This document shows positions 21,243-40,508 of a stretch of DNA of 64,000 nucleotides, one piece after another. Position numbers and translations under genes: made by a program. Position 1 is the stretch's first letter; each line of letters starts with the position of its first letter. Source of the DNA: Sandaracinaceae bacterium (GTDB lineage: Bacteria > Myxococcota_A > Polyangia > Polyangiales > Sandaracinaceae); assembly GCA_019637095.1 (NCBI GenBank), contig JAHBWG010000028.1, positions 1-64,000 of the forward strand. Direction: 5' to 3'. The notes beneath the pieces were generated by a model. The model was not told where the DNA came from. It saw only the letters and a list, made by a program, of their open reading frames with translations, and ran no database searches.

Positions 21243-21845
21243 ATGGTGTATCTCACCGGCGTGCGTCCCCTCGCGCTCGTGCTCGTCCTCGGTTCGCTGA
21301 CCGTCGCCTGCGGCGCCAACGACGCCAGCACGGCCAGCTCCGCGACGTCGCGCCCAGAGCCGCGGGCGGCCGAGCCCGCGCCCGCCCCCCAGTCCGCGAC
21401 GAGCCCCGAGCCGGCGCAGAGCCCGGAGCCCGAGCCAGAGCCAGAGCCCGCGCGCACGACGTCCCGGCAGCCCGTCGAGCTCGAGGCAGGCGCACGCCTC
21501 GGCCCGATCCGGATCGGGATGAGCGAGGCGGACGTCCGCGCGCTCGGCCTCGCGGAGACGCGCGTCGATCCCCGCACCGTCGCGTTCGGGCCCTACCACG
21601 TGACCTTCCGCGCGGGCGCCGTTCGTCGGGTCGAAGCCGAGATCGGCGCGCTCGCCGCGATCCGGTTCGACGGGCGCGTGCTCGAGGCCGGCACCCACAT
21701 CGGCGCGATCCGAGACGCGTTCGGGGACTGCACCTGGACCGAGGGCGGCGGCGAACGCTACGTGTGTGCGGGGGGCACGCTCTCGATTCGAACGACCCAC
21801 ACGATGGACCCGCAGCGCTACACGATCGGCGTCGAGGGGCGGTAG
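21243..21845 (+). CDS. Hypothetical lipoprotein with Pro/Glu linker
   Basis: A 200-residue lipoprotein: the signal peptide ends SLTVACG (Cys about residue 23), followed by a Pro-Glu-Ala-rich linker (about residues 38-70, PEPEPEPEP) and a C-terminal domain of about 120 residues starting [16 protein letters not shown]. That opening resembles the small repeats in which a GIxxGMs-type turn precedes a helix (BamE/SmpA-like folds), but the match is weak. Two Cys near the end ([17 protein letters not shown]) could form a disulfide. It lies 20 bases after the proline-rich gene and may be its last co-transcribed neighbour. Confidence 0.68.
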
Positions 21846-21954
21846 ATTTCGCCCGCCTGCGCCTGACGAGCGCGCGGATCTTCGCGGGAACACACCCGCT
21901 GCCATACCCGTTCGGGTGAGTGTGCGCGACGAGCACCCGCGAGCCGATTGGCCC

Positions 21955-21971
21955 CGTTCGTGCGTCGAACG
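21955..21971. promoter_or_regulatory. Palindrome CGTTCG-N5-CGAACG, copy 1
   Basis: A perfect six-base inverted repeat with a TGCGT spacer. An almost identical element recurs 200 bases on. Two spaced palindromes before a regulatory gene suggest an operator for a dimeric regulator. Confidence 0.45.
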
Positions 21972-22111
21972 AATGGAGCATGCCGCGCATCCGTCCACTC
22001 GATCGCGCCTCGTCGCGAGCACCGTCGAAGCGCCGGGGGCTTCTCGCCGACCCCCGAGTGCTCCAGATCTCCAGCACTACGAGCACGCGATCGAAGCCAA
22101 GGTGCAGCCCC

Positions 22112-22137
22112 GGCTCGGACATCGAACGCCCCGAGCC
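22112..22137 (+). repeat. Stem-loop in the sigma-factor leader
   Basis: GGCTCGG (22112-22118) pairs with CCGAGCC (22131-22137) across a 12-base loop, 79 bases before the ATG. It could fold in the 5' leader mRNA. Confidence 0.4.
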
Positions 22138-22154
22138 AAGAGAACTTCGAGGCC

Positions 22155-22171
22155 CGTTCGCACGTCGAACG
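22155..22171. promoter_or_regulatory. Palindrome CGTTCG-N5-CGAACG, copy 2
   Basis: Same six-base arms as copy 1 with a CACGT spacer; including one flanking base on each side, 17 of 19 positions are identical. It ends 44 bases before the sigma-factor ATG. Confidence 0.45.
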
Positions 22172-22215
22172 AGCACTCGCGAAAGCAGGACCCTTTGAAG
22201 CACAGGCCCGAAACG

Positions 22216-23724
22216 ATGTACCTCGACCACGACTTGCTGGCGCTCGGCAAGAAGCGCGGATACCTCACCTACGACGAGGTGTGCGCGAAGTTGGCGAACG
22301 CCCCGGACCTGAGCCGCGCGATCCCCGCGGTGACGAGGACGCTCGAGGCCGAGGGCATCGCGCTCTCCTACGAGGAGGATCGGTGCGTCTCGGTCAAGCG
22401 CGCGCGCGCGCCCAAGTCGCGCTCGGCGGAGATCGACATCGTCGAGCGCTACCTCGGCCGGCTCGGCGACGTCGCGCTGCTCACGCGCGACGGCGAGATC
22501 GAGCTCGCGCGCCAGATCGAGCGCGGTCGCCACCGCCTGCTCGAGCTGCTGTGGCGCACGCCGATCACCATCCCCGAGATCGGGCGGCTCTGCGCCCGGC
22601 TCGAGCGCGGGGAGATCAGCGTGCGCGAGGTGATCGCGGAGCAGCTGCGCAAGGGGACGGACGAGGAGAGCGTCGCTCGCGATCAGACCCTCGCCGCGCT
22701 CAAGCAGATCGTCGCGCTCGACGAGCAGATCGAAGCGACCCGCAGCGCGAAGCGCGAGGAGGTGCTGCGCGCCGAGCGGGCCGAGCTCCTCTTCACGCTC
22801 GACTTCCACGAGAAGCCGCTCGAGCGCATCGTGTCGCGGCTCGTCGGCTACGCCGCGCGGATCGAGCGCGCCGAGCGCGAACGCGCGCACGACCCCCGCG
22901 AGGCCAAGCGCCTGCTCGCCGAGATCGAAGCGCAGGCGGGACAGCCGATCGCGCTCGTGCACCGCACCGCGCTCGAGCTGCGCGAGGCGGTCGCCGTGGT
23001 CGACGCCGCGAAGTCCGAGATGGTGGAAGCCAACTTGCGCCTCGTCGTCTCGATCGCGAAGCAGTACCGCGGCCGCGGCCTCGCGTTCCTCGACCTCATC
23101 CAGGAGGGGAACATGGGCCTGATGCGCGCCGTCGAGAAGTACGACTACCACAAGGGCTTCCGGCTCTCGACCTACGCGGGCTGGTGGATCCGGCAGTCGA
23201 TGAACCGCGCGACGCAGGAGCAGGGGCGCACGATCCGCGTGCCGGTGAACGCGCTCGAGCGCTTCCACCGCGTGATGCGACAGATCCACGAGCTGACGCC
23301 GAAGCTCGGCCGCCCGCCGACGCCGCGCGAGATCGGCAAGGCCCTCGACATGCCCGAGCGCCGCGTGACCGAGCTGATGGAGGCCATGCGCGACACCGTG
23401 AGCCTCGACATCCCCGTCGGCGTGGACGGCAGCTCGACCCTCGGCGATCTGGTGGTCGACCCGGACCAGGCGACGCCGATGCAGCCGCTCGTCGACGACT
23501 CGCTCGAGACCACGCTGCGCACCGCGCTCGAGACGTTGACGGAGCGCGAGCGGGAGATCCTGCGCATGCGCTTCGGTATGGACGGCGAGGAGGAGCACAC
23601 CCTCACCGACGTGGGCGACCGGTTCGGCTTGAGCCGCGAACGCATCCGACAGCTGCAGGTGCAGGCGCTGCGCAAGCTGCGGCTCGCGCAGGACGGCGCC
23701 CTCGCCGCGTTCGCGGAGGTGTGA
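22216..23724 (+). CDS. RNA polymerase sigma-70 factor, RpoD-like
   Basis: A 502-residue sigma factor. A short region-1.1-like N-terminus ([13 protein letters not shown]) is followed by region 1.2 ([14 protein letters not shown]), a non-conserved insert of about 180 residues, region 2 ([23 protein letters not shown] and [13 protein letters not shown]), region 3 and region 4 with the helix-turn-helix [19 protein letters not shown]. This layout is that of primary sigma factors, which recognise -35/-10 promoters. It could be the housekeeping factor or a close paralogue, since primary genes usually sit beside dnaG, which is not here. ATG at 22216 places the start at the family N-terminus; the Shine-Dalgarno is weak. 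Confidence 0.88.
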
Positions 23725-23797
23725 GCGGGTCGGCCGGCTTCGAGGGCGCCCTCGGAGCCCGTCGGCCGCCGCGAACGGGTAGACTGCCATCCACCCG

Positions 23798-26700
23798 GTG
23801 GCGAGGAGATCCGATAGCGAGCTCGGCGCGTTCGAGGGCGTCTTCGCGCCGTCGGTGCTCGTGGGGCTCGGCGTCGTCGCGCACCTGCGCCTGCCGCGCG
23901 CGCTCGGCGCGATCGGGCTCGCCGAGACGATCGGCCTCGTCTTGGCCGCCTACGTGGTGGGCGTCATCACCGCGCTCGCCTTCGCCGTCATCGCCAGCGA
24001 CCGCAGCCGCGGCAGCGGGGCCGATCACCACCTCGTGTCGCGCAGCCTCGGGCTCCCCACCGGCGGGACGTACGCGCTCCTCTCGTTCGTGGGGCTGGCG
24101 CTGCTCGGCGGCCTCGGCGCGCTCGGCCTCGCGCAGAGCCTGCTCGCCGCCCTCGGCCTCGACCCGACCGATGCGTGGGCGACGCGGCTCCTCGGCGCCG
24201 CGTGCCTCGCGCTCGTCGGCGCGCTGACCATCCCGGGGCCCCGCGTCGCCGCGCGGCTCCCCGCCGTCGCCTTCGCGCTGGTCGCCCTGTCGTTCGCCGC
24301 CATCGTCGCGGGCGGCGGCGGCGCCGAGCTCGACGCGACGCTCGAGGCGAGCGCGTCGCCCGGCCGAGCGCTCGATTGGCTCGGCGCCCTGTTCCCCGGC
24401 GTCGGCGGGCTCGCGGTCGGCGTGAGCATGGCGGGCCGGCTGCGCGAGCCCGAGCGTGCGCTCCCCCGCGGGCTCGTCGCGGCGACGCTGGTGGGGCTCG
24501 CGGTCCAGCTCGCGCTGGCCGTGTTCCTCGCGCTCGCGCTCGACGCCAACGCGCTCTCACGGCCGCGCCTGCTCGAGGAGATCGCGGCGTTCGCGCCCGC
24601 CGTCTCCGTCGGGCTGTGGGCCGCGGCGCTGATCGGCGCGCTCGCCTGCGTCGTCGGCGCGGCGCACACGCTGCGCGCGTTCGCCTCGGAGGGGCTGGGG
24701 CCGCGCGGGCTCGCGCGCAGCCTCGCGCCCCCGAGCCCGGCGCGCAACGCCACGCTCCTGAGCCTCGCGGTGGCGGGGACCGGCGTGGTCGTGGGTGACC
24801 TGGACGCGGTCGCCGCCCTCGGATCGACCGCGCTCTTGGCGGGCTTCGCGCTCGTCAACACGGCGTGCGCGCTCGAGAGCCTGCTCGACCCGGACTTCCG
24901 CCCCTCGCTCGTCGTCCCCAAGACGGTGAGCGCGATCGGCGCGGTGGGCGCGCTGGCGCTGCTCGCGCTGATCGGCCTCGGTTCGGCGGCCCTGGCCGTG
25001 CTCGGCACCGCCGGGCTCTACGCGTACTTCCAGCGCGCGCACTTCGCGCACGAGGCGGCGAGCGCGTGGGACGGGCTGTGGTCGCGGGTGGTGCGGGCCG
25101 GGCTCCAACGCCTCGCCGGCGCCGACGAGTCGGGCCGGGCGTGGCGCCCGTCGGTCCTCTCGTTCCGGCCCGCCGCGACGCCCGCCTCGCGCCTCCTGCG
25201 CGAGATCGTGCGCGCGCTGACCTCGGGGAGCGGGTTCGTCACGGATCACCGCCTGCGCCCGCGGCAAGCCACGCCGACCGCCCCCACCGAGCCGCTCGCC
25301 GGCGCGCTCGAGCAGCCGCTCACCACCGACGATCCCCTCGCGACGATCCTGTCTCGCGCGCGGCACGGAGGGATCGCGGGCGCCGTGCCCAACGCGGTGC
25401 TCCTCGACTGGGACGCGCTGGCGAGCGAGCAGACGCTCGCCACGCTCCTCGGGGAGCTGCGCGCGCTCGATCTGAGCGTGCTGGCGCTGGCTCCGGGGGA
25501 AGAGGTGAGCGGAGCCGAGGCCGACGCGGCGCGGCGCATCGACGTGTGGTGGCGCGAGGACGGCAGCCCCGCCCTCGGGCTGGCCCTCGCGCGCCTGCTC
25601 TCGCGCACCCAGACGTTCGCCGAGGCGCCGGTCCGGCTGCGGACCGTGACCGCGGACCCGACCAGCGAGCGCGGGCTCGCCGCGACCGCCCTGCGGCTCG
25701 CCGACGACGCGCACGTGATCGCCGACGTGGAGGTCATCCTCGAGCGCCCCGGCGGCCGCGGCCTCGAGCACCACGCGCGCGCGCGCTCTGCGGACGCGGG
25801 ACTCGCGATCGTCGAGCTCCCCCACGGGACGCCGGACGAGGCCAGCCTCGCCGCGCTGCGCGAGCTCGCCGCCGCCCTGCCCGCCACGCTCTTCTTCGGC
25901 GCCGGCGCCCCGTTCCGCGCGATGCGCTTCGCGCGCGACGCCGAGGTGCAGGCCGGGGCGCCGCTGCGCCTCGAGCTCGATCTGCCCGAGGAGCCTGCCC
26001 TCGCGCGGCACGTCACGCGGTTCGCCGACCGCCTCGCCGAGATCACCGATCACTACTTCCGCGAGGCCATCGCGCGCGCGGCGCAGCGGGACGAGCGCCT
26101 CCTCGACACCATGGAGGTCGTCGCCGCGCAGCACGCCGCGATCGCGGACGCGGAGCCCACGGCGAGCCACGCGGCGCTCCTCGCCGATTGCGAGCGCGCG
26201 ATCCGCGAGCTCGTCGACCAGTGCCTCGTGGACCAGCGCGCGCTCCTCGAGGTGGGCGCGCGCGAGCTGCTCGACGACGAGTCGCTCGTCGACCCGGAAC
26301 AGGTCCTCGTCGTCGAGCGGCGCGAGGCCGACTACGCGCCGGGCCCCATCGACTCGCGCGAGCTCGCCACCTTCAAAGAGGAGCGGCGTGCGCTCGCGGC
26401 CGACGGCGTCGTCTCCGAGCCGATCGCGACCGCGCCGATCGCGCGCCCGTACGCGGAGGAAGAGCTCGTCGAGCTCGCCCTGCGGGTCACGCGATCCTAC
26501 TCGCGGTCGTCGTGGCGGCTCGGCGTCGCGCTCCTCGCGTCGATCGGCGCTTCGCACGACCCCGCGGACGAGCCCACGACCTCGGTGGAGTCGCTCCGCG
26601 CCGCACACCGCGCGCGCGTCGAGGCGCTGCGAGCCGAGCTCGCCGACGAGGCGCGCGCGCTCGCGCAGCGCTACGCGGACGAGCTCGCCGCCATCGACCT

Positions 26701-28765
26701 CCCGCTGCGGGATCGCTCCCGCGACGGCCGCCGAGCCGCCGCGCTCCGCGCCGAGCTCTCGGCCGCGGGCGGCACCCACTACGAGCGCCAGCGCGCGCTG
26801 CTCGAGCGGGCGATCGTCGCGCTCGAGGTGTCCGCGTTCCGCCATCGCCTCGCGCAGGCCGTCGACGACGCGACGACCCGCATCGAGCGCGAGCTCGCGA
26901 GCGGGGCCACGCCGGCGCTGCGCGGTCTGACCGAGACGCTGCGCCGGTACCTCGAGGCCGCAGACGACGCGCCGCTCGAGCTGGCGATCGCGCCTCGGGG
27001 GATCGCGTTCGACGCCGCCGGTCACCTCGAGGCGCTCGCGCGCGAGACCGGTCGTGCCGCCGCGGAGCTGACCGAGGACGTGCGCACCGTCGACGACGAC
27101 TCGCTGCGGCGCCTGGGCGCGGGGGCCGACGACGAGATCGCGCTGGTGGACCTTCCGCTCCGCCGGCTCTGCCGGTTCCTCGTGGACGCCGAGCTCATCG
27201 GCCCCGCGACCGAGCGGATCGCGGCGCTGCCGGCCGCGGAGGCGCAGGGGCTCGCGGTCGTCGACGAGGTCGAGCGCCTGATCGAGTTCCATCAGCGCGA
27301 GCACGAAGCGGCGGGGACGACGGGGACGACCGATGGTCGGTTCGCCCACATGCGGCCGGTGGTCGAGCGCTCGATCGCGCGGCTCGAGAGCGAGCTCGCG
27401 GCGCTCGAGGCGACGTCGGGCGAGGTGCGGGCGACGCTGACCCGCCGGCTCGCCGCAGTGCTCGCGCGGACGGACGCCTACGAGCTCAGCCGGTCGGCGC
27501 AGGCGCTCGACCACCGCGTGCGCCGCGAGAAGGGACGGCAGGCGCTCAGCGGCGTGCAGGCGTTCGCGCTCCGCGTGGGCGAGCACCTGCGCGAGGCGCT
27601 CGTCGGCGCCCTGTATGGCAGGAGCGCGGGCATCCTCGTCGCGCGGCGCCTTCGCGAGGAGGCGCGCGACCCGGGGACGTCGGTCGAGCGCGTGCGCGCT
27701 CTCGTCGACGCGCTGCGGCCGCGGCAGGACGTCCTCGAGGCCCTGCCCTTCCATTACCGCCAGCTCTTCCTCGGCGCGCACGCGCCCGGCGAGTCGTTCT
27801 GGGTCGAGCGAGAGGCCGAGACACGGGCGGCGGAGCGCGCGGTCGAGCGGCACGTGCGCGGCGCGCGGGGGCTGCTCGTCGTCCACGGCGAGCCCGGCAG
27901 CGGCAAGAGCGCGCTGACGAGCCGCCTGCTCGAGACCGCGCTCGCGGGGCGGCCCGTCTTCCGCCTCGCGCAGCCGGAGGTGGCAGACCCGAGCCTCGAC
28001 GGGCTCGGGCGCGCGCTCCGCGAGGTGAGCGGCCGGCGCGGACGCCCCGCCGACGTGCTCGCGTCGCTGCCGCACGAGGCCGTCGTCGTGGTCGAGGACG
28101 GAGAGCTCTACTGGCAGCGCTCCGCGAGCGGGCTCGCCGCCATCGACGCCTTGCTCGAGGCGAGCGGCGCGAGCGGCGCTCCGCTCGTGGTGCTGGAGAT
28201 CGGGACGCCGGCGCTCCACGCGCTGGACCGGCTGCGCGGGCTCCGAGATCACGCGCTCGGCGTGGTGGAGTGCGGGCCGCTGCCGGCGGCCGCGCTCCGA
28301 GACGTGGTGATGTCTCGCCACGCCTCGACCGGCCTGCGGTGCGAGCTCGCCGGCGCGGGCGAGCAGGCGCTCACCGAGTGGCGCGTCGCGCGGCTCTTCA
28401 ACCAACACTTCGCCGCGAGCGGCGGGCGGGTCGGCGCCGCGCTCGCCGGGTGGGTCGCGCACGTCGAGCGGGCGTCCGAGCACGCGCTCGTGGTGCGCGC
28501 GCCCGCGCGCGCGGACGCGGAGGCGCTCGATGGGCTCCGACCGGACGCGGCCGCGGCCCTGCTCGCCCTGCTCCTCCACAAGCGGCTGACGCGGGCGCAG
28601 ATGCTCGCGCTCGCCGGCTCCGATCGCGCGGCGGTGGACGCGCCGCTCGACGTCCTCGCCCGGATGGGGCTCGTGGACGAGAGCGTCCGAGGCGTCCTCT
28701 CGATCGAGCGCTTCGCCACGCCCGTCGTCGTCGACCGGCTCCGCGCGCGGGGGGTGATCGCATGA
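23798..28765 (+). CDS. SLC12-like permease fused to helical region and C-terminal P-loop NTPase
   Basis: A 1655-residue fusion. Residues about 10-430 form a multi-span membrane domain of the APC/SLC12 fold: GVFAPSVLVGLG, the SRSLGLPTGG segment and FPGVGGLAVGVSMAGRLREP match hallmark stretches of cation-chloride cotransporters. Residues about 480-740 resemble the SLC12 cytosolic domain (GIAGAVPNAVLLDW at 525). Residues about 740-1340 are almost entirely helical and probably coiled coil. A P-loop NTPase follows: Walker A GEPGSGKS (1364-1371) and a Walker-B-like strand VVVVED (1429-1434), then a helical, winged-helix-like tail. The GTG start is chosen for length and frame. The stop overlaps the ATG of the MscS gene (ATGA). 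I know of no described protein with this order; the role is probably ion or volume homeostasis under ATPase control, which is inference. Confidence 0.82.
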   Translation: MARRSDSELGAFEGVFAPSVLVGLGVVAHLRLPRALGAIGLAETIGLVLAAYVVGVITALAFAVIASDRSRGSGADHHLVSRSLGLPTGGTYALLSFVGLALLGGLGALGLAQSLLAALGLDPTDAWATRLLGAACLALVGALTIPGPRVAARLPAVAFALVALSFAAIVAGGGGAELDATLEASASPGRALDWLGALFPGVGGLAVGVSMAGRLREPERALPRGLVAATLVGLAVQLALAVFLALALDANALSRPRLLEEIAAFAPAVSVGLWAAALIGALACVVGAAHTLRAFASEGLGPRGLARSLAPPSPARNATLLSLAVAGTGVVVGDLDAVAALGSTALLAGFALVNTACALESLLDPDFRPSLVVPKTVSAIGAVGALALLALIGLGSAALAVLGTAGLYAYFQRAHFAHEAASAWDGLWSRVVRAGLQRLAGADESGRAWRPSVLSFRPAATPASRLLREIVRALTSGSGFVTDHRLRPRQATPTAPTEPLAGALEQPLTTDDPLATILSRARHGGIAGAVPNAVLLDWDALASEQTLATLLGELRALDLSVLALAPGEEVSGAEADAARRIDVWWREDGSPALGLALARLLSRTQTFAEAPVRLRTVTADPTSERGLAATALRLADDAHVIADVEVILERPGGRGLEHHARARSADAGLAIVELPHGTPDEASLAALRELAAALPATLFFGAGAPFRAMRFARDAEVQAGAPLRLELDLPEEPALARHVTRFADRLAEITDHYFREAIARAAQRDERLLDTMEVVAAQHAAIADAEPTASHAALLADCERAIRELVDQCLVDQRALLEVGARELLDDESLVDPEQVLVVERREADYAPGPIDSRELATFKEERRALAADGVVSEPIATAPIARPYAEEELVELALRVTRSYSRSSWRLGVALLASIGASHDPADEPTTSVESLRAAHRARVEALRAELADEARALAQRYADELAAIDLPLRDRSRDGRRAAALRAELSAAGGTHYERQRALLERAIVALEVSAFRHRLAQAVDDATTRIERELASGATPALRGLTETLRRYLEAADDAPLELAIAPRGIAFDAAGHLEALARETGRAAAELTEDVRTVDDDSLRRLGAGADDEIALVDLPLRRLCRFLVDAELIGPATERIAALPAAEAQGLAVVDEVERLIEFHQREHEAAGTTGTTDGRFAHMRPVVERSIARLESELAALEATSGEVRATLTRRLAAVLARTDAYELSRSAQALDHRVRREKGRQALSGVQAFALRVGEHLREALVGALYGRSAGILVARRLREEARDPGTSVERVRALVDALRPRQDVLEALPFHYRQLFLGAHAPGESFWVEREAETRAAERAVERHVRGARGLLVVHGEPGSGKSALTSRLLETALAGRPVFRLAQPEVADPSLDGLGRALREVSGRRGRPADVLASLPHEAVVVVEDGELYWQRSASGLAAIDALLEASGASGAPLVVLEIGTPALHALDRLRGLRDHALGVVECGPLPAAALRDVVMSRHASTGLRCELAGAGEQALTEWRVARLFNQHFAASGGRVGAALAGWVAHVERASEHALVVRAPARADAEALDGLRPDAAAALLALLLHKRLTRAQMLALAGSDRAAVDAPLDVLARMGLVDESVRGVLSIERFATPVVVDRLRARGVIA

Positions 28766-29523
28766 ACGAAGGCTCGCTCCTCGGCGACGTCACCTCGGGT
28801 GGCTGGGTCCTCGCGTGGCTGCTGCTCGGCGCGGCGCTCCTCTATGGCGCGCTCCGTCTCCTGCGCTTCGCGATCGACGTGGTGCCCCTCGCGCGCGAGC
28901 GGCGCGAGACGCTGCGCGCGGCGTTCCCCGTCGTCGCCGCCGCGGCCGCGCTCGGGTACCTGCTGCTCGCCGCCGCGTGGTTCTTCGGGCCCCACCCGGA
29001 GCACTTCCCGATCGCGGTCGCCGTCATCGTCGGCGTCGCGCTCGCCGCGTCGTGGTTCGGCGTGCGCGACGTCGTGAGCGGCGTCCTCTTGGCCGCGGGC
29101 CGCCTCCTCGAGGTCGGCGATCACGTGCGCGTCGGCGACGTGGAGGGGCGCGTCGCGAGCAAGGGCCTGCGCGCCATCGTCGTCGAGACGGCACGCGGCG
29201 AGGAGGCGGTCATCCCCTACGGCCGGCTCGCGCGCGAGCCGGTGATCCGCACCGCCGCGAGCGAGCGCGGCGCCCGCCACGTCTTCGAGATCGAGCTCCC
29301 CGTGGGCGCCCGGCTCGCCGAGGTGAAGCGCCGCGCGCGCGAGGCGGCGCTGACCTGTCACTGGTCGGCGATCGCGCGCGCCCCCGAGATCGCGGATCTC
29401 GGCGGCGGCCGCCTCGCCGTGACGGTGTTCGCGATCGACCCGGATCGCGTCGACGCGGTGGAGTCAGCGGTCCGCGCCGCGCTCCCGGCCGACGCGCCAG
29501 TCAGTACTGGACGCCGAGGATGA
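28762..29523 (+). CDS. Small MscS-type mechanosensitive channel
   Basis: A 253-residue MscS-family protein with three membrane segments (about residues 12-32, 50-72, 78-110). The last contains the pore-helix pattern AASWFGVRDVVSGVLLAAGRLLEVGD, leading straight into the beta domain (GDHVRVGDVEGRV) and a C-terminal alpha/beta region. MscS channels open with membrane tension and release ions. The ATG overlaps the stop of the SLC12-NTPase fusion by four bases, so the two are translationally coupled and probably act in one process. Its 3' end overlaps the convergent envelope-protein gene by 23 bases. It is close to the minimal size for the family. Confidence 0.88.
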   Translation: MNEGSLLGDVTSGGWVLAWLLLGAALLYGALRLLRFAIDVVPLARERRETLRAAFPVVAAAAALGYLLLAAAWFFGPHPEHFPIAVAVIVGVALAASWFGVRDVVSGVLLAAGRLLEVGDHVRVGDVEGRVASKGLRAIVVETARGEEAVIPYGRLAREPVIRTAASERGARHVFEIELPVGARLAEVKRRAREAALTCHWSAIARAPEIADLGGGRLAVTVFAIDPDRVDAVESAVRAALPADAPVSTGRRG

Positions 29524-34725: not shown

Positions 34726-36030
34726 ATGCGCTCGCAGGTCAACGAGATCGACGCCGTGACGGTCGAGGTCGAGGTGCAGGTCCCGTGGGACCGGGTCAAG
34801 CAGGGCCTCGACGCCAGCTACGGCAAACTGCAGAAGCAGGTCCGCGTCCGCGGCTTCCGGCCCGGCAAGACGCCCCGCAGCGTCCTGACGAAGCTGTACG
34901 GGCCGCAGGTGAACCACGAGGTCATCTCCACGCTCGTCGAGGAGGGGCTGCTCGAGGCGGTGCAGGAGCACTCGCTCGCGATCGTGGCGACGCCCGAGGT
35001 CCGCTCGTTGCCGAGCATCGAGCGCGACAAGCCGCTGTCGTTCACGGCGAAGCTCGAGATCCGCCCGAAGGTCGACGGAGTCGTCGTCGACGGCCTCGAG
35101 GTCAGCCGCCCGTCGAGCGCGGTGGCCGACGCGGAGGTCGACGCGGAGCTCGAGCGCCTGCGCATCCAGCACGCAGAGATCGTCACGCCCGACGAGCCGC
35201 GCCCCGCCGCCCTCGGCGATCTCCTCACCGTCGACTACACGGTCGAGGTCGACGGCGAGGAGAAGGCGGAGATGGCGGCGCAGGGCCGCACCGTCGAGCT
35301 CGGGAGCGGGCGGCTCGTGCCCGCCTTCGAGGAGGGCCTGCTCGGCGCGAAGGTCGACGACGAGGTGACCATCCGCGTCGCCTACGACGACGACGCGCCC
35401 AACGAGGATCTCAAGAACAGGCGCGCGCTCTTCCGGGTGAAGATCACCGAGCTGCGCTCGCGGCTCCTGCCGGATCTCGACGACGAGTTCGCGCAGGACC
35501 TCGGCGAGCACGAGACGCTCGACGCGCTGCGCGCCGCCACGCGCGCCAAGCTCGAGGAGGCGGCCAAGGGCCGCGCGGACTCGGCCGTGCGCGAGCAGCT
35601 CGTCGAGCAGCTCGTCGACAAGAACCCCGTGCCGGTCCCGCCCTCGCTCGTCGACCAGCAGGAGCAGGGGATGCGGCGCGAGCTCGCGTTCCTCGCGCAG
35701 ATCGCCGGGCCCGGGTTCGACCTCGGCGCGAGCGGCGAGCTGCGCGACCGCGCCGAGAAGAAGGTGCGCGCGGCGCTCCTCATGGGCGAGATCGCGCGGC
35801 GCGAGGGCCTCACGATCGAGCCCGAGGAGATCGACGCGCAGCTCGCGAAGATCGCCGAGGCCTCCGGCAAGCACATCGCGAAAGTACGGGTGGAGTACGC
35901 CGGAGAGAAGCGCGACTCGCTCGCGAACAAGCTCCTCGAAGACAAGCTTCTCGATTTCCTGTTGGGGCGGGCTACAGTCACCGACGCACCCCCGAGGAGT
36001 GAGACCGATGCCGGTGAATCCGATGAGTGA
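34726..36030 (+). CDS. tig: Trigger factor (ribosome-associated chaperone)
   Basis: A 434-residue protein with the three trigger-factor domains: the ribosome-binding N-terminal domain with the GFRPGKTP signature (about residues 43-50), an FKBP-type prolyl isomerase domain (about residues 160-245), and a helical substrate-binding C-terminal domain ending in an acidic tail. It binds the ribosome near the exit tunnel and helps nascent chains fold. A strong GAGGAGG ribosome site precedes ATG. It is first of the canonical tig-clpP-clpX-lon set; its stop overlaps the clpP start region by 23 bases, indicating co-transcription and coupled translation. Confidence 0.95.
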
Positions 36031-36643
36031 CGCGCCCCGCCTGATGCCGCTTCCCTACCCGCACGTGATCGAGACGACCCACCGCGGCGAGCGGGTCTCG
36101 GACATCTGGACGCGCCTGCTCAAGGACCGGATCGTCTTCCTCGGCACCGAGGTCAACGACGACATCGCGAACATCATCATCGCGCAGCTCTTGATCCTCG
36201 AGGGCGAAGATCCCGACAAGGAGATCACGCTCTACATCAACAGCCCGGGCGGCGTGATCACCGCGGGTCTCGCGATCTACGACACCATGCAGTACATCCA
36301 GTGCCCGGTCTCGACGGTGTGCCTCGGCCAGGCCGCCTCGATGGCCGCGTGGCTCCTCGCGTCGGGCGCGCCCGGCCGCCGGCGCTGCCTGCCGAACAGC
36401 CGCGTGATGATCCACCAGCCCCTCGCCGGCGTGCGCGGGCAGGCGTCGGACATCGAGATCCACGCGAAGGAGATCCTCCAGCTCCGGCACCGGATGAACG
36501 AGATCCTGTCGAAGCACACGGGCCAGGCCGTCGACAAGATCAAGGACGACACCGAGCGTGACCGCTTCCTCTCCGCCACCGAGGCGAAGGAGTACGGGAT
36601 CATCGACGACGTCATCTTCCCCCGTAAGGGAGACGACAAGTAG
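36008..36643 (+). CDS. clpP: ATP-dependent Clp protease proteolytic subunit
   Basis: A 211-residue serine peptidase. The catalytic triad falls at Ser111 (GQAASMAAW), His136 (MIHQPL) and Asp185 (TERDRF), identical to the numbering of the E. coli precursor when ATG 36008 is the start. GAGGAG lies eight bases upstream of that ATG; GTG at 35999 and ATG at 36023 are less well placed. ClpP forms a barrel of two heptamers and degrades proteins fed by ClpX, encoded next. The gene starts inside the 3' end of trigger factor. Confidence 0.96.
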
Positions 36644-36681
36644 AACGATCCTGGCCACATACGGGGGACACTGGCGGTGAT

Positions 36682-36710
36682 TTGCCGCTGCGCGGGCCGG
36701 GGTTTAGTCT
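36682..36710 (+). promoter_or_regulatory. Promoter candidate upstream of clpX
   Basis: TTGCCG (36682-36687), a 17-base spacer, TAGTCT (36705-36710), 28 bases before the clpX GTG. It would allow clpX-lon expression separate from tig-clpP. Confidence 0.4.
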
Positions 36711-36738
36711 CTGGTGAGGGAAACGACGGGGTAGCAGG

Positions 36739-37992
<1,254 letters not shown>

Positions 37993-38015
37993 GGTCGCAC
38001 TGACCCGGGTGCGCG

Positions 38016-40508
38016 ATGTTCTTCCACAAGAACGACAACGACTCGGGAGGCCGAGGCGGCAAGGGCCGCACCCTCCCCCTGCTTCCCCTGCGGGACATCA
38101 TCGTGTTCCCGCACATGGTCGTCCCGCTGTTCGTGGGCCGCGAGAAGTCGATCAACGCCCTCGAAGAGGCGATGAGCCAGGACAAGGAGATCCTGCTCGC
38201 CGCCCAGAAGAAGGCGAAGACGAACGATCCGACGCCCGAGGACATCTACGCGGTCGGCACCGTCGGGGTGATCATCCAGCTGCTGCGTCTGCCCGACGGG
38301 ACCGTGAAGGTCCTCGTCGAGGGCAAGCGACGTTGTCGCATCGAGCGCTTCGTCCCGCACGACGACTTCTTCCTCTGCGAGGTCGCCGCGCTCGACGAGG
38401 TCAGCACCGCCTCGGTGGAGATCGAGGCGCTCATGCGCTCCGTGCAGTCCACGTTCGAGACCTACGTCAAGCTCAACAAGCGCATCGCGCCCGAGATGCT
38501 GATGCAGGTCCAGACGATCGACGACCCGGCGCGCCTCGCCGACACGATCGTGGTCCACCTGACCGCCGTGAAGCTCCACGACAAGCAGGAGATCCTCGAG
38601 ACCACGGACCCGGCCAAGCGGCTCGAGCGTCTCTTCGAGCTCATGAACGCCGAGATCGAGATCCTCCAAGTGGAGAAGAAGATCCGCTCTCGCGTCAAGA
38701 AGCAGATGGAGAAGACGCAGAAGGAGTACTACCTCAACGAGCAGATGCAGGCCATCCAGAAGGAGCTGGGTGAGCGCGACGAGTTCAAGAGCGAGATCCA
38801 GGAACTCGAAGACCGCATCAAGTCCAAGCCGCTCTCCGACGAGGCGGAGGACCGCGTCAAGAAGGAGCTGCGTAAGCTCAAGATGATGCAGCCGATGAGC
38901 GCGGAGGCGACCGTCGTCCGCAACTACATCGACTGGATCCTGAACCTCCCGTGGTTCGACGTCTCCGACGAGAACTACGACATCGAGCTCGCCGAGCGGA
39001 TCCTCGACGAGGACCACTACGGCCTCAAGAAGGTCAAGGAGCGCATCCTCGAGTACCTCGCGGTGCAGGCGCTCGTGAAGAAGCTCAAGGGGCCGGTGCT
39101 CTGCCTGGTCGGGCCGCCCGGCGTCGGCAAGACGTCCCTCGCGCGCAGCATCGCGCGCGCGACGGGCCGCGAATTCGTGCGTCTGAGCCTGGGCGGCGTG
39201 CGCGACGAGGCGGAGATCCGCGGCCACCGGCGCACGTACATCGGCGCCCTCCCCGGCCGGATCATCCAGAGCCTTCGCAAGGTCGGCACGAACAACCCGG
39301 TGTTCCTGCTCGACGAGGTCGACAAGATGTCGAGCGACTTCCGCGGCGACCCGGCCTCCGCGCTGCTCGAGGTCCTCGACCCGGAGCAGAACTCCGAGTT
39401 CAACGACCACTACCTCGACCTCGACTACGACCTCTCGGACGTGATGTTCGTCACCACGGCGAACACGCTGGGCGACATCCCGCTGCCGCTCCGCGACCGG
39501 ATGGAGATCATCGAGCTCAGCGGCTACACGGAGTTCGAGAAGCTCAACATCGCGGTGCGCTACCTCGTCCCGCGCCAGCAGCGCGAGGCTGGTCTGCACG
39601 ACGTCGACGTGGAGATCACCGAGAACGCGATCCGCACCGTCATCCACCACTACACGATGGAGAGCGGCGTGCGGAACCTGGAGCGCGAGATCGGCTCGCT
39701 CTGCCGCAAGGTCGCGCGCCAGGTGGTCAAGGACGGCGACAAGACCAAGACCTACCGCATCGCGTCGGCGGACGTCCCGCGCTACCTCGGCGTGCCGAAG
39801 TACCAGGGCAACAAGGCCGGCGAGGTCGACAGCGTCGGCCGCACCCACGGCCTGGCCGCGACGGTGTTCGGCGGGACGCTGCTCGACTGCGAGGCCGCGA
39901 TCGTCCCAGGCAAGGGCAAGCAGGTGATCACGGGCCGGCTGAGCGAAGGGATGAAGGAGAGCGCGCAAGCCGCGTTGACCTACATCCGCTCGCGCCACGC
40001 CGAGCTCGGGCTCGACGAGGACTTCCACGAGAAGGTGGACGTCCACGTCCACTTCCCCGACTACATCCAGAAGGACGGGCCGAGCGCGGGGATCACCATG
40101 GCGACGAGCATCGCGAGCGCGCTGATGCGCATCCCGGTGCGCCGCAACGTCGCGATGACGGGCGAGATCACGCTGCGCGGGCAGGTGATGCCGATCGGCG
40201 GTCTCAAGGAGAAGACGCTGGCCGCGCACCGTGCGGGCATCGACACGATCCTGATCCCGAAGGAGAACCGCAAGGACCTGCGGGAGATCCCGAAGCGGGT
40301 CCTCAAGGGCCTGCGGGTCGTGCTGGTCGAGCACATGGACCAGGTGCTCCGCGAGGCGCTCGCGCTGAACGATCCGGACGCGCTCTTCCCGCGGCGCGCG
40401 CGCCCGATGGAGTACCGCGGCGGCCAGCTCGTCACGCCCGACGGCGACGGGGAGCCCTCCTCGCCGGTCCCGCAACCCACCGTCGAGGGCCCGGGCGCCC
40501 AGCAGTAG
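38016..40508 (+). CDS. lon: ATP-dependent protease Lon
   Basis: An 830-residue LonA protease: N-terminal substrate-binding domain ([19 protein letters not shown]), a central coiled stretch ([16 protein letters not shown]), the AAA+ domain (Walker A GPPGVGKT, Walker B FLLDEVDK) and the serine-lysine peptidase domain with Ser690 (KDGPSAGIT) and Lys733 (GLKEK). It degrades misfolded and regulatory proteins in the cytoplasm. It completes the tig-clpP-clpX-lon block. A short acidic/proline tail (about 25 residues) extends past the usual end. A tRNA gene follows 36 bases after the stop. Confidence 0.97.

Follow-up and report, generated by a model that had tools for sequence, protein, structure and literature searches.

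A fusion of an SLC12-type transporter with an AAA+ NTPase, encoded next to an MscS-family channel: a candidate modular unit for ion or turgor control in bacteria

Results

A transporter-NTPase fusion gene overlaps the gene for an MscS-family channel

The two genes described here lie in a 64,000-nucleotide stretch of DNA from a Sandaracinaceae bacterium (GenBank assembly GCA_019637095.1, contig JAHBWG010000028.1, positions 1 to 64,000), which was analysed as a whole and is referred to as the window. All coordinates are window positions on the plus strand unless stated otherwise. The first gene (23798..28765) is an open frame of 1655 amino acids with a GTG start, and was characterized by Pfam, NCBIfam and PDB matches and by AlphaFold2 (AF2) models. 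Its product starts with the membrane and cytosolic domains of an SLC12 protein, which are followed by a helical domain of approximately 570 residues and then by an ORC/Cdc6-like AAA+ NTPase with a winged helix. The second gene (28762..29523) encodes an MscS-family channel of 253 amino acids, as indicated by PF00924, matches to MscS and MscM structures in the PDB, and conserved gene order. The stop codon of the fusion gene shares bases with the ATG start codon of the channel gene (ATGA, 28762-28765), an overlap that suggests matched synthesis of the two proteins.

An earlier note on this DNA, made from the sequence alone, had claimed a 1655-residue fusion of an SLC12-type permease, a helical region and a P-loop NTPase overlapping the ATG of an MscS-type gene. 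Profiles, PDB matches and AF2 models showed that all of these domain calls were correct: the N-terminal part, which had been called APC/SLC12, was confirmed as SLC12, and the neighbouring gene is, judged by its profile, a genuine MscS. A pseudogene is ruled out by the open frame together with a GC3 of 0.95-0.97 in each domain of the fusion. A one-off or an assembly join is ruled out by the recurrence of the fusion in related genomes (12 of 145) and in several phyla (most of 80 loci).

On the other side of the fusion gene, a putative divergent ORF of 845 amino acids (21253-23790, minus strand), which has no Pfam match, ends 8 bases before it. Downstream of the fusion-MscS unit, the genes for trigger factor, ClpX and Lon (34726-40508) form an ordinary protein-quality-control cluster.

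Domains of the fusion protein and of its MscS partner

The membrane domain (residues 1-425; 23798..25072) has about 12 transmembrane (TM) segments and is diverged in the window copy. It was recognised by the Pfam model AA_permease_2 (43 bits over residues 25-389). The NCBIfam K-Cl cotransporter model TIGR00930 matched the fusion with an E-value of 1e-36, and SLC12 chains in the PDB matched it down to 4e-23. For the remainder of the protein, residues 456-1655, an AF2 model was obtained from a 55-sequence alignment (pLDDT 86.7). When residues 456-708 of this model (25163..25921) were compared with known structures by VIA, they gave Z-scores of 21.5 to KCC3 and 18.7 to the prokaryotic cation-chloride cotransporter (CCC) domain 3g40, identifying them as the SLC12 cytosolic C-terminal domain.

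The helical domain (residues ~733-1300; 25994..27697) consists of long helices, between which two small alpha/beta elements are inserted, and contains an internal repeat, its two halves being related with an E-value of 7e-7 in a profile comparison. Folded alone with AF2, it reached a pLDDT of 89.6 and a pTM of 0.80. No Pfam family matches this domain, and comparison of the model with the PDB by Foldseek and VIA gave no clear match (best E-value 0.06); the best VIA Z-score, 12 to designed bundles, is a value that unrelated helical models also reach. The domain may have a new fold, but the lack of a structural match is no proof of this.

The AAA+ NTPase with its winged helix (residues ~1310-1655; 27725..28762) follows the family motif LPFHYRQLF. 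The Pfam model AAA_16 matched the P-loop region just at the cut-off, and VIA assigned the AF2 model to the winged-helix-bearing ORC/Cdc6 AAA+ fold (Z 15.9 over 320 residues to ApORC2). According to sequence and alignment, Walker A (GEPGSGKS, residues 1364-1371; 27887..27910) and Walker B (VVVVED, residues 1429-1434; 28082..28099) are both intact. No sensor-2 arginine of the kind found in typical AAA+ proteins was evident in the family alignment, in which no Arg is conserved across the SGGNVGxAL region, and ATP hydrolysis is therefore uncertain.

The channel protein was matched by PF00924 with 45.9 bits, and its family profile matched solved MscM/MscS structures with an E-value of 4e-14. The MscS beta domain and pore helix are present, following two further TM segments.

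The fusion is found in several phyla, usually with MscS downstream

The helical region was detected in 12 of 145 related genomes, mostly in frames of approximately 1.7 kaa, a few frames being cut by contig ends. A profile scan with one genome per species yielded 80 loci, most of them fusions, in Myxococcota, Bacteroidota, Gemmatimonadota, Neomarinimicrobiota, Calditrichota, Delongbacteria, Chlorobiota, Kapaibacterium and others. Judged by these profile matches, the unnamed module occurs in at least eight bacterial lineages.

Downstream DNA was readable at 59 fused loci, and at 53 of these MscS follows directly on the same strand, so the co-occurrence that the earlier note had proposed to survey is conserved, also beyond Myxococcota. 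Among the MscS-paired fused loci, a start-stop overlap like that in the window is the commonest arrangement. MscS is missing beside six fused loci, and some module-only genes also lack it, indicating that the pairing is not obligatory. When neighbouring genes were clustered, MscS was the only conserved neighbour (51 loci); the next cluster comprised 11 loci, nearly all from close relatives. None of 28 stand-alone SLC12 genes of the phylum had an MscS gene within approximately 1.5 kb. The genome to which the window belongs (9.25 Mb) contains 8 MscS-domain genes, and we estimate the probability of a chance MscS adjacency at about one in a thousand, assuming approximately 7,500 genes.

Several loci depart from the fused form. 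No MscS was found adjoining the helical-AAA+ genes at L113, L116, L126, L127, L128 (Flavobacteriales) and L129; those at L113, L127 and L129 have no permease, and in others of this set the N-terminus is cut by a contig end. The Flavobacteriales genes are located among housekeeping genes. At L138 (7512-12109), a permease-less AAA+ gene has a ZIP-like gene (PF02535, below cut-off) just upstream and MscS downstream, possibly representing a split version with another carrier. At L112 (691-5901), permease and helical-AAA+ part are consecutive ORFs in the same frame, with a stop codon and 69 bases between them; either the gene is naturally split, or a nonsense mutation or an error in sequencing has interrupted it.

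The membrane domain of the window copy lacks the ion ligands of its relatives

Within the protein, conservation among the relatives is highest in the membrane domain; in the window copy, by contrast, the NTPase is better conserved than the membrane domain. The window copy differs at 100 of 185 membrane-domain positions that are invariant in nine relatives, while other members differ at 0-4 positions of their corresponding invariant set. The same type of comparison for the NTPase gave differences at only 5 of 45 positions. Likewise, the terminal branch of the window copy is 1.92 for the membrane domain compared to a median of 0.235, and 0.685 for the NTPase compared to a median of 0.540.

In KCC4, the K+ ligands are the Y216 hydroxyl and the backbone carbonyls of N131, I132, P429 and T432; the Cl- ligand is Y589, and Na+-transporting members have two serines in TM8 (PMC7200160). 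The Na+ motif ATLSS is present in bacterial CCCs (PMC11641049). Alignment of the window copy with its relatives revealed changes among these ligands. In TM1, the ion site reads LVGLGVVAH (23858..23884) instead of LTILGVIMY, and in TM3 the K+-ligand Tyr (position of KCC4 Y216) is replaced by Gly107 (24116..24118). The TM6 ion site is LFPGVGGLA (24389..24415) instead of FFPAVTGFT, with Gly203 in place of the K+-site Thr (position of KCC4 T432). The Na+ site in TM8 is AALIGAL (24623..24643) instead of ATLSSAL, the Ser-Ser pair being replaced by Ile279-Gly280, and in TM10 the Cl- ligand Tyr (position of KCC4 Y589) has become Phe350 (24845..24847). The window copy thus has neither the K+ and Cl- ligand set nor the TM8 Ser-Ser pair. 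These ligands are retained in nearly all fused relatives and in stand-alone bacterial CCCs, with L107 and L061 as partial exceptions.

As the ligands for K+, Na+ and Cl- are lost, the window membrane domain probably no longer transports these ions, and we do not class the window copy as a working SLC12 cotransporter; its relatives do have this defining feature of the family. The loss in one lineage means that transport is either dispensable there or changed. The SLC12 part of the window copy probably serves as a non-transporting membrane anchor or sensor, or carries something else. Despite the loss of the ligands, the Walker motifs and MscS are intact. The window genome contains no conventional CCC (best match to the K-Cl cotransporter model, E-value 6e-19); sister genomes with the fusion additionally hold a stand-alone CCC. 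A swap of the membrane domain for an unrelated permease was considered and ruled out, as the domain groups with the same relatives as the C-terminal part (FastTree support 0.91).

A different pattern was observed at L107 (205-5448, Bacteroidota). This locus is 95-100% identical to L105 except in TM1-TM10 (50-68%, with sharp borders), and its K+-site Tyr is changed to Asn. A second decayed permease is the less likely reading because the changes stop sharply after TM10; L107 likely has a mosaic or recombined permease core.

The same module is attached to Na+/H+ exchangers

A search with the AAA+ profile detected distant relatives in the same class whose N-terminal half is a sodium/hydrogen exchanger (NHE; PF00999). 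Their linker is homologous to the helical domain (hhalign probability 98.6, E-value 5e-16, 476 columns), their NTPases are homologous to those of the SLC12-type fusions (hhalign E-value 9e-31), and both types of protein share an LP..YRQLF/YRRLF motif before the P-loop. Comparison of the two types shows that the helical-AAA+ part plus MscS is constant and that the carrier varies. In the NHE-type fusions, which come from other Myxococcota, MscS is downstream in 49 of 50 cases, while upstream genes for TrkH and for TrkA were each detected in 27 of 46. The genome of the window itself contains such a locus (L197; G000:C143:38100-48700, minus strand), in which four genes are arranged as TrkA-TrkH-[NHE-helical-AAA+]-MscS. 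Of the clues to function, the presence of Trk K+-uptake genes beside these fusions is the strongest, and it speaks for a role in ion or turgor control rather than in defence.

Forms without a recognised exchanger are followed by MscS in 14 of 17 cases. A third architecture is represented by L191 (3902-8264), L247, L249, L250 and L251. These are AAA+ proteins of approximately 1100 residues that have no recognised transporter but either a signal-like N-terminus or a few TM segments in the middle of the protein, with MscS following. The exchanger site, which usually reads ND, DD or QD, was inspected in L188, L195, L207, L192, L227 and others: most of the fused exchangers have Lys-Asp there (VLKDVVVV), and some vary to NN, ME or GE. 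Ion coupling may be altered in the proteins with an unusual site.

Discussion

We observed the same parts in a conserved gene order, a swap of the transporter to which they are attached, and the loss of ion ligands in the window copy. We lean, if only slightly, towards the view that the fusion and its MscS are one copy of a modular ion- or turgor-control unit, in which an ATP-dependent coupler would join a salt transporter to a release valve, and whose transporter half would be non-transporting in the window. The constant core of such a unit would be the cytosolic helical domain and the ORC/Cdc6-type AAA+ NTPase, encoded directly before a dedicated MscS, and this core would be attached to an exchangeable secondary transporter, either SLC12 (Na-K-Cl type) or a Na+/H+ exchanger. 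The NTPase might read the state of the cell, that is ATP/ADP, ionic strength or crowding. Upon ATP binding, a change in the shape of the AAA+ module would be relayed via the helical domain, in cis to the carrier and in trans to MscS. Transporter and MscS would be set in opposite senses, with salt uptake at low turgor and valve opening at high turgor. In the window lineage, the carrier branch has probably been cut, so that an AAA+-regulated MscS would remain. Physical contact, the direction of control, ATP dependence and the physiological role of the unit are what we infer from these observations.

The idea of an ion or turgor control device, already raised in the earlier note, gains support from the comparison with the NHE-type fusions, in which the AAA+ module sits on a Na+/H+ exchanger with MscS downstream and TrkH/TrkA upstream. 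That the device is self-contained, as the note also supposed, is doubtful for the window copy, given a membrane domain without K+, Na+ and Cl- ligands. A bolder proposal, which we make tentatively, is that these proteins form a new class of ion-homeostasis machine: the AAA+/helical module, mounted on unrelated transporters, would gate MscS by nucleotide state and not by tension alone, and the window transporter would be a pure sensor.

It is also conceivable, although we consider it unlikely, that the window membrane domain has kept transport but changed its substrate, its rapid divergence being due to a new solute, for example an amino acid or an organic osmolyte, with the rest of the unit unchanged. 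Such a change would agree with the intact frame, the approximately 12 hydrophobic segments and the strong codon bias, and generic amino-acid-permease profiles do match the domain. However, no amino-acid-transporter subfamily outscored the K-Cl cotransporter model, and the single window sequence shows no newly conserved, testable pocket.

Rather improbable is a reading of the AAA+-winged-helix part as a membrane-anchored DNA-binding regulator, for which transporter and MscS would merely be co-regulated cargo. ORC/Cdc6, the closest fold, contacts DNA via its winged helix, and the tails of some NHE-type relatives weakly match ArsR/MarR HTH models. Yet the winged helix of a STAND-type NTPase does not necessarily bind DNA, and the conserved helical domain of approximately 570 residues and the near-constant downstream channel fit physical coupling better.

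Known conflict systems include STAND/AAA+ NTPases adjoining membrane effectors, and the distribution of the fusion is patchy (12 of 145 relatives), but a defence or cell-suicide device, in which infection sensed by the NTPase would lead to MscS opening and depolarisation of the cell, is highly improbable: a PADLOC search with the window pair and six relatives matched no catalogued defence protein, there was no plasmid hit, MscS was the only conserved neighbour, the transporter domains of relatives keep intact ion sites, and Trk K+-uptake genes adjoin the NHE-type sister form. The suggestion of a sensor-effector that depolarises the membrane, made in the earlier note, finds no support in these results. 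NTP-dependent conflict systems have been described, and the SLC12-AAA+/MscS pair is not among them (PMC7159879).

The earlier note knew of no named system with the architecture of this proposed unit, and the open-access literature likewise yielded no account of SLC12-AAA+ or NHE-AAA+ fusions paired with MscS. None of the scanned Pfam or PADLOC models describes the helical domain or the whole system, and we therefore rate the system as new. Each domain is already known; the novelty lies in the arrangement, the swap logic and the breadth of occurrence, the function being proposed from sequence.

Bacterial volume control is usually described in terms of uptake systems (Trk, Kdp, Kef) that are separate from tension-gated valves. 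If the proposed unit operates as outlined, some bacteria would place uptake and release under one ATPase regulator with interchangeable carriers. Bacterial relatives of NKCC and KCC would gain a genetic context, and the window copy would constitute a natural experiment in which switch and valve have been kept but the ion ligands of the carrier are gone. The coupler itself is new ground, as neither a Pfam family nor a clear structural match was found for its helical domain.

The individual parts can be compared with known systems. The membrane and cytosolic domains are homologous to those of SLC12 transporters (TC 2.A.30; NKCC1, KCC4, and the Methanosarcina acetivorans CCC, PDB 3g40), to which the fusion adds a helical-AAA+ extension of approximately 950 residues and an MscS partner gene. 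Typical fused members retain the Na+, K+ and Cl- ligands of SLC12 cotransporters, whereas the window copy does not. With ORC/Cdc6-type AAA+ proteins and STAND NTPases (Apaf-1 was also matched), the fusion shares the AAA+ core, the winged helix and Walker A/B. Unlike them, it has no replication or apoptosis context, sits behind secondary transporters and carries the LP..YRQLF motif of its family before the P-loop. The channel is homologous to MscS and MscM in TM3, the beta domain and part of the C-terminal domain, but it is a short form of 253 amino acids that is genetically tied to a transporter-AAA+ fusion, and the pore helix of its family differs from that of E. coli MscS and carries a conserved Trp. 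Finally, the Kef and Trk/Ktr K+ systems likewise have a cytosolic nucleotide-binding module on or beside an ion transporter, and the sister version of the fusion adjoins TrkH and TrkA. Here, however, the regulator is an AAA+ module with a helical domain and not an RCK/KTN Rossmann domain, the partner is MscS, and the carrier is SLC12.
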